From Streptomyces sp. NBC_00457 (GTDB lineage Bacteria > Actinomycetota > Actinomycetes > Streptomycetales > Streptomycetaceae), in contig NZ_CP107905.1 in NCBI RefSeq assembly GCF_036014015.1, forward strand, positions 9,610,001-9,674,000: 64,000 bases of DNA, given 5' to 3'. This document shows, in pieces, positions 18,224-23,197 of the stretch (positions are counted from its first letter, which is position 1; each line of letters opens with the position of its first letter). The notes under the pieces are model-generated. The model saw only the letters and a program-made list of their open reading frames with translations, was not told where the DNA came from and did not search any database. The position numbers and the translations under genes are program-made.

Positions 18224-19051
18224 TCAGCGGGCGGCCAGCAGGCCGTACAGCAGCGGGATACGCGGCTCGGGCAGCCGCCACCAGCCGGACGGCGTACGCA
18301 CCATCCGCGGCCAGCGCTGCCAGGGCAGCTCGTCGCTCTCCCGTAGCCTCCGGACGGCCAGTCCCGCACCGGTCAACGCGTTGAGGACCTCGTCCATTCC
18401 GTGCATCCACTCATAGCTGTCCGTGGCGCCTTCGACGGCCGGACCGTCCGTGTAGGTGTGCGTCGCGTCCCGGTGCACGGGGCCGCCCCCGCCCAGATAG
18501 TCATGGCGCAGCAGCAGCTCGGGACCCTCGCCCGGAGCGGGCTTGGGCCCCAGGGAGTTGAGCAGCGGGTGGAACTCGACCACGTACAACAGGCCGCCGG
18601 GCCGCAGGAGTTGGGCGACGACATCCGCCCAGCGAGCCAGATCCGGCAGGTAGCACAGGGCGCCCTTGCCGGTGTAGACGACGTCGAACTGCCGCCCCTC
18701 CAGGGAGGATACGGCGTCGTACACGTTCGCCTGGACGTAGGTGACGTCGACGCCCGCCTTCTCCGCGATGCCGGTCGCCGCCGCCACCGATGCCTCCGAG
18801 AAGTCGAGGCCGACGGCTCGTGCGCCGCGCCGCGCGAAGGCGAGTGTCTCGGTGCCGAGGTGGCACTGGAGGTGGAGCACGTCGCGGCCCGACAGCTCGC
18901 CGAGGTCCTCCCACTCGAAGTCGGCGAACCAGCGGTCGGGATCGAGGTCCTGGTCGAGGCCGTAGAACCGGCTGGCGAGGTGGACGGGGGTACGGGCGTC
19001 CCAGTTGGCCTGGTTGGCCCGCATCAGCCGTGTGTACTCGTCGGTGGTCAT
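18224..19051 (-). CDS. class I SAM-dependent methyltransferase
   Basis: A 275-residue methyltransferase of unknown substrate. The glycine-rich SAM loop is DVLHLQCHLGTET, followed by the acidic end of strand two (VGLDFSEASV) and LLRPGGLLYVVEFHP, a typical post-motif region. ATG 19051 is preferred over TTG 19063. The N-terminal ANQANWDARTPVHLASRFY is characteristic of a widespread actinobacterial subfamily that is not functionally described to my knowledge. It is divergent from the DGPF/sigma operon across 118 bases. Confidence 0.85.
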   Translation of the reverse strand: MTTDEYTRLMRANQANWDARTPVHLASRFYGLDQDLDPDRWFADFEWEDLGELSGRDVLHLQCHLGTETLAFARRGARAVGLDFSEASVAAATGIAEKAGVDVTYVQANVYDAVSSLEGRQFDVVYTGKGALCYLPDLARWADVVAQLLRPGGLLYVVEFHPLLNSLGPKPAPGEGPELLLRHDYLGGGGPVHRDATHTYTDGPAVEGATDSYEWMHGMDEVLNALTGAGLAVRRLRESDELPWQRWPRMVRTPSGWWRLPEPRIPLLYGLLAAR

Positions 19052-19103
19052 GGGGCCATCCAACCGGTGCCCCGGCTTCTTCGCGTGAAAAACGACAGAC
19101 GTG

Positions 19104-19130
19104 TGTCGATTCGGCCGTGGCCCGTTCGTC
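19104..19130 (+). promoter_or_regulatory. ECF42-type sigma promoter of the DGPF-sigma operon
   Basis: TGTCGA (19104-19109), a 17-base spacer and CGTC (19127-19130). I recall ECF42 promoters being described with TGTCGA at -35 and CGA/TC at -10. The site lies 43 bases from -10 to the first start codon. A second copy with the same boxes and spacing is at 21478-21504, and both continue into the same 15 bases around the -10 box. Confidence 0.75.
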
Positions 19131-19169
19131 GGTGGGGTGTAGGAAGCTCATGAGCACCGGGAGGAACCC

Positions 19170-19913
19170 ATGAAATACATGTTGCTCGTCTGCGGCGACG
19201 ACACCGCCGACGCCTCCGGCATGGCCCCCGTAGAACCCTGGGTGGAGGACCTCGGTGACCGCGGCACCCGCCTCCACGGCCACCGCCTCGCCCTGCCCGC
19301 CGAGGCCGTCACCGTGCGGGTGCGTGGCGGCGAAGTGCTGCGCACCGACGGGCCGTTCGCGGAGACGAAGGAGTACGTCGCCGGATACGACATCCTCGAG
19401 TGCGACAGCCTGGAGGAGGCGATCGAGGCGGCGTCCAGGCACCCCGTGGCCACCATCGGCGCCATGGAGGTTCGTCCCTTCTGGCCGATGTCGGATGCGG
19501 AGGACGCGGAGACGTCGATCCGCCGGCTCGACGCGGAACTGACCGAAGCGGTCCGCGCACGGGACATCGCGCGGATGCTCGCCTGCTACGCCCCGGACGT
19601 CGAGGCGTTCCACCCCATGGCCGGTCTGGAGCAGCGGGGGATCGACGCCTTCCGCAAGGCCCAGGAGTGGTGGCTGTCGACGGTGACCGGGCCCGTGGAG
19701 CGCGAGGTGCTGGAGTTCCGGGTCCGCGTGGACGAGAGCGTCGCGTTCAGTCACGCGCTCGTGCGGATGCGGGCCACCCTGACCACGGGGGAGCCGCTGG
19801 ACAGCACCGTGCGGGTGACCACCGGCTACCGGCTCCCGGCCGACCGGTGGCTCATCGTCCACCAGCACACGTCGGCCCCGTTCGACGCCGGAATCGAGGA
19901 GGCCCGGTCATGA
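19170..19913 (+). CDS. DGPF (YCII-related) domain fused to a SnoaL-like domain
   Basis: A 247-residue two-domain protein. Residues 1-105 are a YCII/DGPF domain (MKYMLLVCGDD start, then RTDGPFAETKEYVAGYDI, which contains the name-giving motif). Residues about 115-245 are an NTF2/SnoaL-like domain (LTEAVRARDIARMLACYAPDVEAFHPM). DGPF proteins are the constant partners of ECF42 sigma factors; their biochemical role is not established. GGAGG precedes ATG 19170. The stop overlaps the next DGPF gene as ATGA. Expected to be under autogenous sigma control from the promoter at 19104. Confidence 0.88.
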   Translation: MKYMLLVCGDDTADASGMAPVEPWVEDLGDRGTRLHGHRLALPAEAVTVRVRGGEVLRTDGPFAETKEYVAGYDILECDSLEEAIEAASRHPVATIGAMEVRPFWPMSDAEDAETSIRRLDAELTEAVRARDIARMLACYAPDVEAFHPMAGLEQRGIDAFRKAQEWWLSTVTGPVEREVLEFRVRVDESVAFSHALVRMRATLTTGEPLDSTVRVTTGYRLPADRWLIVHQHTSAPFDAGIEEARS

Positions 19914-20251
19914 AGTACGTGCTCTTCATCTGCACCCCTGTCGGCGGCGAGGAACTCAGCCCCGAGGAGATCGCCGACGACTCCCGCTTCACCGAGTACA
20001 TCGACCTGGTGCGCAGCCGCGACGTCGTGAAGGGCGGCGCCCGTCTGCGCCCCTCTTCCGACGCGACGACCGTCCGCGTGCAGGGCGACGAAGTCCTGCT
20101 CACCGACGGGCCGTTCGTGGAGTCCAAGGAGTACGTCGCCGGCTTCGACATCATCGAGGTCGCCGATCTCGACGAGGCCATCGCGCTCGCCTCCCGGCAT
20201 CCCGCGGCACTGGGCGGCGGCTCGGTCGAGGTACGGCCGGTCTGGGAGTGA
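19910..20251 (+). CDS. DGPF (YCII-related) domain protein
   Basis: A 113-residue single-domain partner of the preceding protein: MKYVLFICTPVGGEE, LTDGPFVESKEYVAGFDI and a C-terminal GSVEVRPVW. It overlaps the upstream gene by ATGA and the sigma gene by GTGA, so all three should be translated together. The role is unknown; ferredoxin-like dimers of this family have a possible small-molecule site. Confidence 0.9.
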   Translation: MKYVLFICTPVGGEELSPEEIADDSRFTEYIDLVRSRDVVKGGARLRPSSDATTVRVQGDEVLLTDGPFVESKEYVAGFDIIEVADLDEAIALASRHPAALGGGSVEVRPVWE

Positions 20252-21492
20252 ACTCCACGGACGGCGTCGAGGAGGCGGTCGCCGCCGCCTTCCGCGAGGA
20301 ATGGGGTCAGGTCGTCGCCACCCTCATCCGGGTGACCGGCGACTGGGACCTCGCCGAGGAGTGCGCGCAGGACGCCTTCGCCCAGGCCCTGGACCGGTGG
20401 CGGCGCGACGGAGTGCCGCGCCGCCCCGGCGCCTGGCTGACGACGACCGCGCGCAACCGGGCCCTGGACGTCCTGCGCCGGGAGGCGGTGGGGGCGGCGA
20501 AGCTGCGGGAGGCGGCCGTGCTGACACGCGACGGACACGACGAGTACGACGAGAGCGGCGTCGAGGACGACCGGCTCCGGCTGATCTTCACCTGCTGCCA
20601 CCCCGCCCTCCCCATCGAGGCCCGGGTCGCCCTGACCCTGCGCACCCTCGCCGGGCTGACCACGCCCGAGATCGCCCGCGCCTTCCTCGTCCCCGAGGTG
20701 ACGATGGCGCAGCGCCTGGTGCGCGCCAAACGGAAGATCCGCAACGCCGGCATCCCCTACCGCGTACCGCCCGAGCACCTCCTCCCAGAACGCACCACGG
20801 GCGTGCTCGGCGTGCTCTACCTGCTCTTCAACGAGGGGTACGCCGCCTCGTCCGGCGCAGACCTGATGCGCACGAACCTCACCGCCGAGGCCCTCCGCCT
20901 CACCCGTCTGCTCGCCCGGCTCATGCCCGACGAGCCCGAGGTGCTCGGCCTGCTGGCGCTGCTGCTCCTGCATGACGCCCGCCGGGCGACCCGCGTGAAC
21001 ACGGTGGGCGAACTGGTGACGCTGGAGGACCAGGACCGCACAGAGTGGGACCGCGCCGAGATCGACGAGGGCACTGGCCTGCTGGAGACCGCCCTGCGCC
21101 GGGGCAGCCCCGGGCCCTACCAGATCCAGGCCGCCATCGCCGCCTGTCACACCACCGCGGCCACGGCCGAGGAGACCGACTGGGCCGACATCGCCGCGCT
21201 GTACGGCGAGCTGACCCGGTTCGTGCCCTCCGCCGTCGTCCGGCTCAACCGCGCGGTCGCCGTCGGTATGGCGCAGGCCCCGGATGCCGGCCTGGCGCTG
21301 GTGGCCGAGCTGGAGACCGAGGGCGAGCTGTCCGGGTACCACCTGCTGCCGGCCACCCGTGCGGATCTGCTGCGCCGCAGCGGTCGTACGGCCGAGGCGG
21401 CAGCGGCGTACGAACAGGCGCTGGAACTGGTCGTGAACGACGCCGAGCGGCGGTTCCTCGAAAAGCGGCTCGCGGAGTGTCGATCCGCGTAG
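20248..21492 (+). CDS. ECF-type RNA polymerase sigma factor, ECF42 group, with TPR-like C-terminal extension
   Basis: A 414-residue sigma factor. Region 2 covers about residues 8-80 (DWDLAEECAQDAFAQALDRW) and region 4 about 120-175 (LAGLTTPEIARAFLVPEVTMAQRLVRAKRKI). A long extension follows, with the group marker YLLFNEGY and a late ADLLRRSGR close to the conserved motif of this group. No membrane anti-sigma gene is nearby; ECF42 proteins are thought to be controlled by their own C-terminal extension. GTG 20248 overlaps the DGPF gene. The stop codon lies between the -35 and -10 boxes of the second ECF42-type promoter. Confidence 0.92.
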   Translation: MNSTDGVEEAVAAAFREEWGQVVATLIRVTGDWDLAEECAQDAFAQALDRWRRDGVPRRPGAWLTTTARNRALDVLRREAVGAAKLREAAVLTRDGHDEYDESGVEDDRLRLIFTCCHPALPIEARVALTLRTLAGLTTPEIARAFLVPEVTMAQRLVRAKRKIRNAGIPYRVPPEHLLPERTTGVLGVLYLLFNEGYAASSGADLMRTNLTAEALRLTRLLARLMPDEPEVLGLLALLLLHDARRATRVNTVGELVTLEDQDRTEWDRAEIDEGTGLLETALRRGSPGPYQIQAAIAACHTTAATAEETDWADIAALYGELTRFVPSAVVRLNRAVAVGMAQAPDAGLALVAELETEGELSGYHLLPATRADLLRRSGRTAEAAAAYEQALELVVNDAERRFLEKRLAECRSA

Positions 21493-21504
21493 GGGCGGTT
21501 CGTC
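21478..21504 (+). promoter_or_regulatory. second ECF42-type promoter, ahead of a 38-codon gene
   Basis: TGTCGA (21478-21483), 17 bases, CGTC (21501-21504). It shares box sequences and spacer length with the operon promoter, and TTCGTCGGTGGGGTG is identical in both. It begins within the last codons of the sigma gene and fires toward the small gene at 21543, with the -10 box 42 bases from the start codon. Confidence 0.7.
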
Positions 21505-21542
21505 GGTGGGGTGACAGACCCCCACCGACACCGGAGGTTCCG

Positions 21543-21659
21543 ATGAAAGCCCTCGTACGCAAGCTTCTGACACAGCTGCGGCAGCCGGTCACCCCACGCG
21601 ACGACATGCCCCCGGGCACCCCGGACGTCTGGCTCGCCGGACTTCGCCTGGGAGGCTGA
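21543..21659 (+). CDS. small 38-residue protein under the ECF42-type promoter
   Basis: ATG 21543 follows GGAGG (21533-21537) at normal spacing. The product is short and basic at the N-terminus (MKALVRKLLTQLRQ), then Pro-rich (PVTPRDDMPPGTPDV), ending WLAGLRLGG. There is no membrane helix; the first 14 residues could form an amphipathic helix. I recognise no family. The case for a real gene rests on the ribosome-binding site plus the promoter copy upstream, whose distance to the start matches that of the operon promoter. It could be a regulator or target of the sigma system. Confidence 0.6.
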   Translation: MKALVRKLLTQLRQPVTPRDDMPPGTPDVWLAGLRLGG

Positions 21660-21781
21660 CGCCGGTCGTCTGCCGGCCGAGAGACCCCGCGCTCAGCATC
21701 TCTGAATCCCCGCAGCGACGGGAGGGCCGTCCAGGGGGACACTGTGAGTGGATGTCGGCGCTGGCAAGGGGGTGTCGACCG

Positions 21782-22363
21782 ATGGTGAGGACACGGCGTC
21801 CGACGGTGCGGATGTGGCGGTGGCGGCGCAATCCGCTCCGGCGGCGCATCGATGTGGTCGAGGCCTGGCTCGTGCTCGGCGCGTGGATCCTGGCGGTCGT
21901 CTGCGCGGTGCCGGCGGGGCTGATGACCCAGTCCGCCGTGCGGGAGGACCTGGACCGGCAGCGGGTGGAGCGGCAGCAGGTCACGGCCGTCCTCGTCGCG
22001 GACGCGGGGGAGAGGCCGACCGTGACCGAGACCGACGGTGATCTGGTGTGGGCCGACGCCCGCTGGACCGCGCCGGACGGTCAGAGCCGCACGGGCCTGA
22101 CCAAGGTACGGCCCGACACCCCCGCCGGGTCCCGGGTCACCGTCTGGACCGACCAGGCCGGAGCCCTGGCGGCCGAACCCGTGTCGCCCGGTGAGGCCAG
22201 GCTCCAGTCGGTCCTGGCGGGCGTCCTGGCCGGAGCGGTCGCGGGCGCGGTCGTGATCGGCGGTTCCTATGGAGTTCGGGCGATGCTCGACCGGCGGAGG
22301 ATGGCGCAATGGGATGCAGAGTGGGAGCGCGTCGACACCCGGCGGGGCGGCAGGACGGGCTGA
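21782..22363 (+). CDS. Rv1733c-like transmembrane protein
   Basis: A 193-residue protein with an Arg-rich N-terminus ending RRNPLRRRIDVVEAW, one helix right after it, a roughly 110-residue external domain, a second helix near residue 150 and a charged tail. This layout matches the Rv1733c-like membrane family of actinobacteria; function unknown. ATG 21782 has AAGGGGG upstream; an in-frame ATG at 21752 is possible. A paralogue lies at 30477-31061. Confidence 0.75.
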   Translation: MVRTRRPTVRMWRWRRNPLRRRIDVVEAWLVLGAWILAVVCAVPAGLMTQSAVREDLDRQRVERQQVTAVLVADAGERPTVTETDGDLVWADARWTAPDGQSRTGLTKVRPDTPAGSRVTVWTDQAGALAAEPVSPGEARLQSVLAGVLAGAVAGAVVIGGSYGVRAMLDRRRMAQWDAEWERVDTRRGGRTG

Positions 22364-22440
22364 GGCGGGTCGGCTGGGCACGACCGTGTGGTCGGGGGCG
22401 TCGCGCACTCGTGTGCCCGGTGGCCGCCGTCCCGTTCCCC

Positions 22441-22446
22441 TAGGCT
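22441..22446 (+). promoter_or_regulatory. -10 box for a probably leaderless methyltransferase mRNA
   Basis: TAGGCT ends seven bases before the ATG at 22454, so transcription should begin at or next to the start codon. No ribosome-binding site is present. The -35 region is not clear. Confidence 0.5.
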
Positions 22447-22453
22447 GACGCGA

Positions 22454-23197
22454 ATGTTCAGCCCCGAAGGCCCCAGTCTCCGCGAACTCGCCGTCCAGGC
22501 GCTGTCGTCCGTCGAGCGCGGATACGACCTGCTCGCCCCGAAATTCGATCACACCCCCTTCCGGACCCCGGATTCGGTGCTTGACGCGGTCGCGGTTGCG
22601 CTGGACCGGATCGGTCCGTTCGACGCCGGGCTCGACCTGTGCTGCGGTACCGGAGCGGGCGTCGGCGTGCTGGCGCGGGTGTGCCGGGAGAGCGTCACCG
22701 GGGTCGACTTCAGCGCCGGGATGCTCGCCGTGGCGCGGGAGCGGACGGGGGCGGAGGGGCCGCGGGCGGAGGGGCCGCGGGTCGACTGGGTCCGGGCGGA
22801 CGCTCGCGCCCTGCCCTTCGCCCCCGCCTTCGATCTTGTCGTGAGCTTCGGGGCGTTCGGGCACTTCCTCCCCAGTGAGGTGCCCGGACTGTTCGCTCAG
22901 GTCCACTCCGTGCTGCGGCCGGGCGGCCGCTTCGTCTTCCCGGTGGTCGCGCCGCCGCGTCCCACGTCCCCCGCCTACTGGATGCTGCTGGGTTTCGACG
23001 CGGCTATGCGGGTGCGCAACGCCGTATGGCGGCCGCCGTTCGTCATGTACTACCGCGCCTTCCGGCTCGGGGACGTACGGCGGGAGCTGGAGGATGCCGG
23101 ATTCGACGTCGATCTGCACGCGCTGCCCGAGTTCGGGCAGCGGTCGGACGGCAGCCCGCGCGTGCGGATGGTCGTGGCCCACCGCCGGGCGATCTGA
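22454..23197 (+). CDS. class I SAM-dependent methyltransferase
   Basis: A 247-residue protein with the SAM loop [16 protein letters not shown], the acidic site [10 protein letters not shown], and [17 protein letters not shown] after motif III. The substrate is unknown. The start is ATG 22454, where the mRNA is probably leaderless. Residues around 100-109 repeat AEGPR twice, encoded by an exact 15-bp tandem duplication between the SAM strands. A short hairpin separates it from the convergent STAND gene. Confidence 0.85.
22750..22779 (+). repeat. 15-bp tandem duplication inside the methyltransferase gene
   Basis: GGCGGAGGGGCCGCG occurs twice head to tail (22750-22764, 22765-22779) and keeps the frame, adding one AEGPR unit in a loop. 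Confidence 0.85.

Follow-up and report, generated by a model that had tools for sequence, protein, structure and literature searches.

We analysed a stretch of 64,000 nucleotides from Streptomyces sp. NBC_00457 (contig NZ_CP107905.1, positions 9,610,001 to 9,674,000; hereafter the window) and focused on an operon encoding an extracytoplasmic function (ECF) sigma factor, on the two promoter sites that flank it and on a small open reading frame (ORF) behind it. The operon lies on the plus strand and consists of DGPF1 (19170-19913; 247 aa), a fusion of a YCII/DGPF domain (Pfam YCII, 48.8 bits) with a SnoaL_3-like domain (62 bits), the YCII/DGPF protein DGPF2 (19910-20251; 113 aa; YCII, 43 bits) and the sigma gene (20248-21492; 414 aa). 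Neighbouring genes of the operon share ATGA at 19910 and GTGA at 20248, as described in an initial annotation of this DNA; that these overlaps fix the ratio of the products was an overstatement, and only translational coupling is likely. Promoter copy 1 (P1; 19104-19139, plus strand) precedes the operon, with TGTCGA at 19104-19109 as -35 and CGTC at 19127-19130 as -10 element. Copy 2 (P2; 21478-21513, plus strand) has TGTCGA at 21478-21483 and CGTC at 21501-21504. Behind P2 lies a gene that the annotation had not named as the target of this copy, an ORF of 38 codons at 21543-21659 on the same strand (MKALVRKLLTQLRQPVTPRDDMPPGTPDVWLAGLRLGG) with the ribosome-binding site GGAGG. In our interpretation, which we consider probable, P1 and P2 are the promoters of the sigma factor encoded between them, and P2 drives an exchangeable target slot that is occupied here by the gene of a small protein acting in trans.

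The sigma factor contains regions 2 and 4 (Sigma70_r2 44 bits, Sigma70_r4_2 39.4 bits, sigma70-ECF 59.2 bits), followed by about 245 residues in which DUF6596 matches at residues 182-282 with 126.3 bits. ECF42 factors carry an extension of about 200 residues with repeats of the tetratricopeptide (TPR) kind; here, the repeat character is weakly supported, as TPR_2 scored 24.5 bits, under its cut-off of 27. Together with the two YCII proteins encoded upstream of the sigma gene in the same operon and with the promoter sequence, the ECF architecture and the extension support the assignment to the ECF42 type that had been made earlier. Among the named relatives that we met, the closest, the Streptomyces record L169, encodes a sigma factor of 99% identity, and the window genome, a single contig of 10.8 Mb, has four further DUF6596 (ECF42-type) sigma genes. 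The earlier statement that ECF42 factors have no classic anti-sigma factor agrees with two publications (PMC8999054, PMC6180224). At this locus, six proteins were scanned with family models and showed no anti-sigma domain.

Both copies of TGTCGA-N17-CGTC (19104-19130 and 21478-21504) were found where the initial annotation had placed them, one ahead of the operon and one where the sigma gene ends, with the same spacer of 17 bases. The latter description is exact: the TGTCGA of P2 forms a Cys-Arg codon pair with the Cys codon four codons before the stop, the protein tail reads Cys-Arg-Ser-Ala-stop, and the TAG stop itself sits in the P2 spacer. A common tract around the -10 element had also been noticed correctly, although it comprises 16 bases (GTTCGTCGGTGGGGTG; 19124-19139 and 21498-21513) and not 15. 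From the first base of the -35 element to the start codon we counted 66 bases for P1 and DGPF1 and 65 bases for P2 and the small ORF; the former distance is 64-67 bases in 38 of the 40 Streptomyces-clade loci that have P1. Four loci of one clade without an exporter gene (L085, L097, L104 and L117) carry a GC-rich, hairpin-like insert in the P2 leader, so that the -35 element and the start codon lie 103-131 bases apart. We rejected the idea that P1 and P2 are recent copies of each other, as spacer identity within a locus was 0.44 versus 0.65 among P1 sites and 0.68 among P2 sites of different loci. In S. venezuelae, the cognate ECF42 promoter is reportedly TGTCG(A)-N17-CG(A/T)C.

The bare pattern TGTCGA-N17-CGTC matched the window twice, as compared to a shuffle mean of 0.42, and 3 of 100 shuffles reached two matches; this is modestly unusual and constitutes weak evidence. 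When the pattern was relaxed to TGTCGA-N17-CG(A/T)C and one mismatch was allowed, 15 matches were obtained where 18.5 were expected. In a genome-wide motif search, the extended motif TGTCGA-N14..16-TTCGTCGGTGGGG was found twice in the 10.8-Mb genome, both times at the operon. Across the genus it occurred in 42 of 392 genomes, at 57 places, while a reversed control pattern gave 0 matches, and we conclude that the extended motif is not chance. These numbers bear on an alternative explanation, according to which P2 is a coincidence between a coding constraint for Cys-Arg-Ser-Ala-stop and a chance -10 element, with the small ORF being spurious. The weak significance of the bare pattern in the window and the abundance of open frames in high-GC DNA agree with such a coincidence; the empty reversed control contradicts it, and so do the codon data presented below.

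A second alternative is that P1 and P2 are real but mainly serve another ECF sigma factor or a paralogue of the cell. In its favor, three of the four further DUF6596 genes have TGTCGA-N17-CGAC or CGTC ahead of their DGPF gene. However, these paralogue sites diverge from P1 and P2 just past the -10 element, the TTCGTCGGTGGGG form stands solely at the window operon within the genome, and the motif tracks the sigma orthologue, with 39 genomes shared between the 42 that have the motif and the 43 that have the orthologue. This alternative thus appears quite improbable. No TGTCGA was present at the 3' ends of the four paralogous sigma genes in the fetched stretches. At 356590, 2498148, 9684156, 9711557 and 10347641 of the window genome (G000:C1) we observed TGTCGAC..CGACGG sites that have one spacer base more and whose spacers resemble each other.

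The search for sigma orthologues was blind to the motif and identified 43 of the 392 genomes at E <= 1e-145; the 39 genomes in which motif and orthologue coincide compare to an expectation of 4.6. This result supports the view that the two matching sites accompany the sigma gene across genomes. The motif alone was found in G049 and G140 (partial sigma match) and in G312 (fetched piece without sigma match), and the orthologue alone in G011, G141, G189 and G275. From these data we assembled a Streptomyces-clade set of 42 loci, 38 of them chosen by the motif and 4 by the sigma gene, in which P1 is present in 40 and P2 in 27 loci. The loci with P2 comprise 14 with the small ORF alone, 8 with the small ORF and an adjacent major facilitator superfamily (MFS) gene, 4 with MFS alone and 1 (G067) with neither, whereas 14 of the 15 loci without P2 have neither ORF nor MFS and the remaining one, G109, has a promoterless ORF remnant. 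When P2 and this cargo, which had been located independently of the promoter, were compared along the sigma gene phylogeny (tails removed, 44 rows, partial G049 excluded), they were concordant in an average of 6.7 of 7 independent pairs (median p 0.016). For MFS versus small ORF, the same tree offered too few informative pairs.

The codons underlying P2 follow the cargo as well. The TGT-CGA spelling of the Cys-Arg pair occurs in each of the 27 cargo-bearing loci (the remnant and 26 others) but in only 4 of the 15 without cargo (Fisher p 3e-7, uncorrected for relatedness); the other cargo-less loci have TGC-CGN (7) or no Cys-Arg pair (4). That loci with P2 have TGT-CGA is true by definition and was not used. 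In the same sigma genes, TGT makes up 29 of 230 Cys codons (12.6%) and CGA 48 of 1988 Arg codons (2.4%). The -10 half alone (TTCGTC[GA]GTGG) gave 27/28, with the cargo-less L099 as the exception. The rare codons look as if they were kept for the promoter. In view of this bias, the codon-position pattern of the small ORF and its 127 homologue clusters, a coincidental P2 is scarcely credible.

We next consider the small ORF itself. Across 31 distinct ORFs, diversity at the first, second and third codon position was 0.07, 0.047 and 0.412 over the ten codons before the last, and this concentration of variation at the third position shows that the small ORF is coding. A profile search in which the 8000 best candidates were scored, and which favors the motif, returned 127 homologue clusters at E <= 1, of which 120 were listed. 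The homologues share the C-terminus PDVWLAGLRLGG, while their N-terminus and linker are variable; P, W, A and R of this core do not vary among the 120 listed clusters, of which 118 have precisely two residues beyond the core. Listed homologues are 33-97 aa long (up to 128 aa in fetched loci), and their N-terminus is mostly basic, with a mean net charge of +3.9 over the first 25 residues. Between the window ORF and its sister G122, the core differs by 3 synonymous and 0 nonsynonymous changes and the N-terminal part by 6 and 7, respectively; the L155/L161 pair is less clean (1 synonymous and 4 nonsynonymous changes in the core). We also considered a ubiquitin-like reading of the GG tail, which was ruled out as the last two residues can be GS, RG, WG or GC. 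In L116 (G068), the sigma factor has the C-terminus RLAELRLGG, as if a natural deletion had fused its tail to the final codons of the small ORF.

Neither the window ORF nor five representatives matched a Pfam or NCBIfam model, and listed homologues, where named, are called 'hypothetical' or 'uncharacterized protein', with no Pfam domain given. The single match of the profile among solved structures (E 0.65) is not meaningful. No title or abstract in the literature search, which lay outside most subscription journals, describes the small protein. We dropped a count of 82 genomes (of 392) obtained with the small-ORF profile, as the weak matches L300, L302, L303 and L304 turned out to belong to one conserved larger protein frame; many further weak matches share similar profile ranges and lie in long frames, hence we give no genome count for the ORF. 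The larger frame, which looks like a ComM/YifB-type ATPase, contains a stretch similar to the small protein (LRQLIAVLADEP..PGRPDPLLAGLRV), probably by chance.

A scan with one genome per species yielded at least 119 stretches; 80 listed loci, several of them shared with the 392-genome set, were classified. They contain 89 motif places: 25 ahead of DGPF genes, 43 immediately behind a sigma gene and 21 for which the fetched piece showed no properly placed sigma match. The 43 post-sigma places are followed by DUF899 (12), an AHSA1-like gene (11), MFS (5), the small ORF (8), the small ORF and MFS (4) or none of these (3, including L131 and L133, where the fetched piece breaks off). The 21 other places precede DGPF1 (6), AHSA1-like (3), DUF899 (1), MFS (3) or none of these (8). 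Since the contents change between lineages, P2 appears to mark an exchangeable target slot behind actinobacterial ECF42 sigma genes, which is in line with the earlier suggestion that the second copy extends the set of targets. In the Streptomyces clade, the slot is filled mostly by the small-protein gene. In the Actinomadura loci L191 (655-3134) and L201 (272 onward), DUF899 and MFS genes stand as tandem single-gene units behind the sigma gene, each with its own copy of the extended motif.

A representative of the MFS proteins is of the DHA2 type and EmrB/LmrA-like, scoring below the curated cut-offs of those models. A further candidate in G267 proved to be an unrelated protein on the opposite strand (28% identity), which reduced the MFS count from 13 to 12. 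In 12 loci where an MFS gene follows the ORF, 2-5 bases separate the stop of the ORF from the MFS start codon, and the last two codons of the ORF (GGA GGC, GGG AGC and similar) constitute the purine-rich ribosome-binding site of the MFS gene. Because of this arrangement, the ORF would double there as a coupled upstream gene, and ORF-MFS translational coupling is likely in some species.

This raises the alternative that the small ORF encodes a leader peptide with a regulatory role, whose C-terminus, with its Trp, Arg and UGA stop, slows or stalls ribosomes and thereby sets MFS expression, and that it is a slowly decaying relic where MFS is absent. The junctions just described would suit such a role, as would the conserved C-terminus at a constant two residues from the stop next to a variable N-terminus and the use of TGA as stop in 31 of 31 distinct ORFs. 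Furthermore, the final residue pair is GG or GS in 12/12 MFS-bearing ORFs, while RG, WG or GC occur in 6 of 19 MFS-less ones. However, constraint on the core is similar without and with MFS: the ratio of nonsynonymous to synonymous differences (pN/pS) was 0.142 in the 19 MFS-less and 0.117 in the 12 MFS-bearing ORFs (all pairs summed and hence not independent; for L129 and L183 of the former group, the status comes from the ORF listing alone). In addition, a clade of five with 100% bootstrap support is wholly MFS-less and has kept the ORF in 4/5, and MFS occurs without such an ORF in 4 of the 27 loci with P2. We therefore regard the leader peptide as an unlikely explanation. An ORF serving MFS alone would decay after loss of the MFS gene, yet the core was kept, which favors a peptide acting in trans, with an additional role at the RNA level where MFS follows.

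Based on these findings, we propose the following working model. P1 would transcribe DGPF1, DGPF2 and the sigma gene, implying autoregulation, and P2, inside the 3' end of the sigma gene, would transcribe a separate target slot. While position, motif and leader geometry of P2 are established, the dependence of both promoters on the sigma factor is predicted from sequence comparisons. In some relatives, a DHA2-type MFS exporter within a few bases of the ORF would be expressed by translational coupling. In the window lineage, which has no adjacent MFS gene, the peptide most likely acts in trans upon ECF42 activation, because selection has kept its core without MFS. It would consist of a basic N-terminus (presumably a helix), a variable linker and a putative C-terminal docking motif, P-D-V-W-L-A-G-L-R-L, two residues before its end. 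As the leading, though rather unlikely, candidate for the docking partner we consider the sigma factor itself, and we speculate that the peptide docks by this motif on the TPR-like extension of the sigma factor and switches it off (or keeps it on), resulting in feedback.

Several observations weigh against this model. G314 (L294) lacks the sigma operon and any TGTCGA-N17-CGTC site but has an intact ORF beside the methyltransferase gene; this weakens a strict partnership of ORF and sigma factor, but the loss of the operon may be recent. G067 has P2 with neither ORF nor MFS downstream, and L099 has the -10 half without TGTCGA and without cargo. The four loci with P2 and MFS but without the small ORF (one of them, L089, has an ORF of nine codons there) indicate that the slot does not require the ORF. 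Finally, the presence of P1 in 40 of 42 clade loci, 38 of which were chosen by the motif itself, would fit the positive autoregulation through P1 proposed in the initial annotation, but in S. meliloti RpoE10 did not induce its own operon (PMC6180224). One further locus, G104, is decayed and contains fragments of the sigma gene, the ORF and MFS.

A divergent S-adenosylmethionine-dependent methyltransferase gene (18224-19063, minus strand) lies outside the proposed target set and also adjoins the operon in a number of relatives, and a gene for an Rv1733c-family protein (21752-22363) follows directly 3' of the small ORF. Rfam gave no match at gathering scores across 18900-22500 of the window.

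Among known systems, the MFS-bearing loci resemble translationally coupled upstream ORFs of efflux genes, in which a small ORF likewise stands a few bases before a DHA2/MFS gene and contains its ribosome-binding site. Here, in contrast, MFS follows in only 8 of the 22 loci with P2 and a small ORF in the 42-locus set, and does not do so in the window; in the other 14 the ORF lacks an efflux gene and is nevertheless under amino-acid selection. In arrest peptides such as SecM and TnaC, the conserved C-terminus keeps a set distance to the stop, and the small protein shares this confinement of constraint to the C-terminal region, including an invariant Trp and Arg; it differs in the same lack of an adjacent MFS gene in 14/22 loci.

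The sigma factor resembles known ECF42 factors (Sven_0747, Sven_4377 and Sven_7131 from S. venezuelae, RpoE10 from S. meliloti and ECF-10 from P. putida) in having sigma regions 2 and 4, a long extension at the C-terminus, neighbouring YCII/DGPF genes, a TGTCG-type -35 and a CGTC -10 element (sites compared for S. meliloti). Overexpressed RpoE10 (SMc01150) induced SMc01149-SMc01148, by locus number the operon next to its gene, but did not raise its own YCII-sigma operon (PMC6180224), which speaks for our interpretation of P2 and calls for caution with P1. The table entry for SMc01149-SMc01148 reads TGTCGG-N17-CGTC and ends with a lower-case g 9 bases past CGTC, which we have taken as the mapped start (PMC6180224). 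ECF42 is a widespread sigma group without a known anti-sigma factor; according to a 2022 review, the partner of most of the extension is unidentified and a YCII protein has been suggested (PMC8999054). The small protein is a further, if doubtful, candidate for this partner, and if it proved to be one, ECF42 would gain a peptide-sized regulator in place of an anti-sigma factor in the Streptomyces clade. Our data add a promoter pair whose extended motif is unique to the operon in its genome, an unnamed small-protein family with members at most called hypothetical or uncharacterized, and a slot whose content shifts between DUF899, AHSA1-like, MFS and small protein and may point to detoxification or efflux as output. 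The portions of the ECF42 literature at hand mention no such small-protein gene. What sets this locus apart from the known ECF42 systems is a putative post-sigma promoter that overlaps the last codons of the sigma gene and precedes the gene of a predicted small protein.

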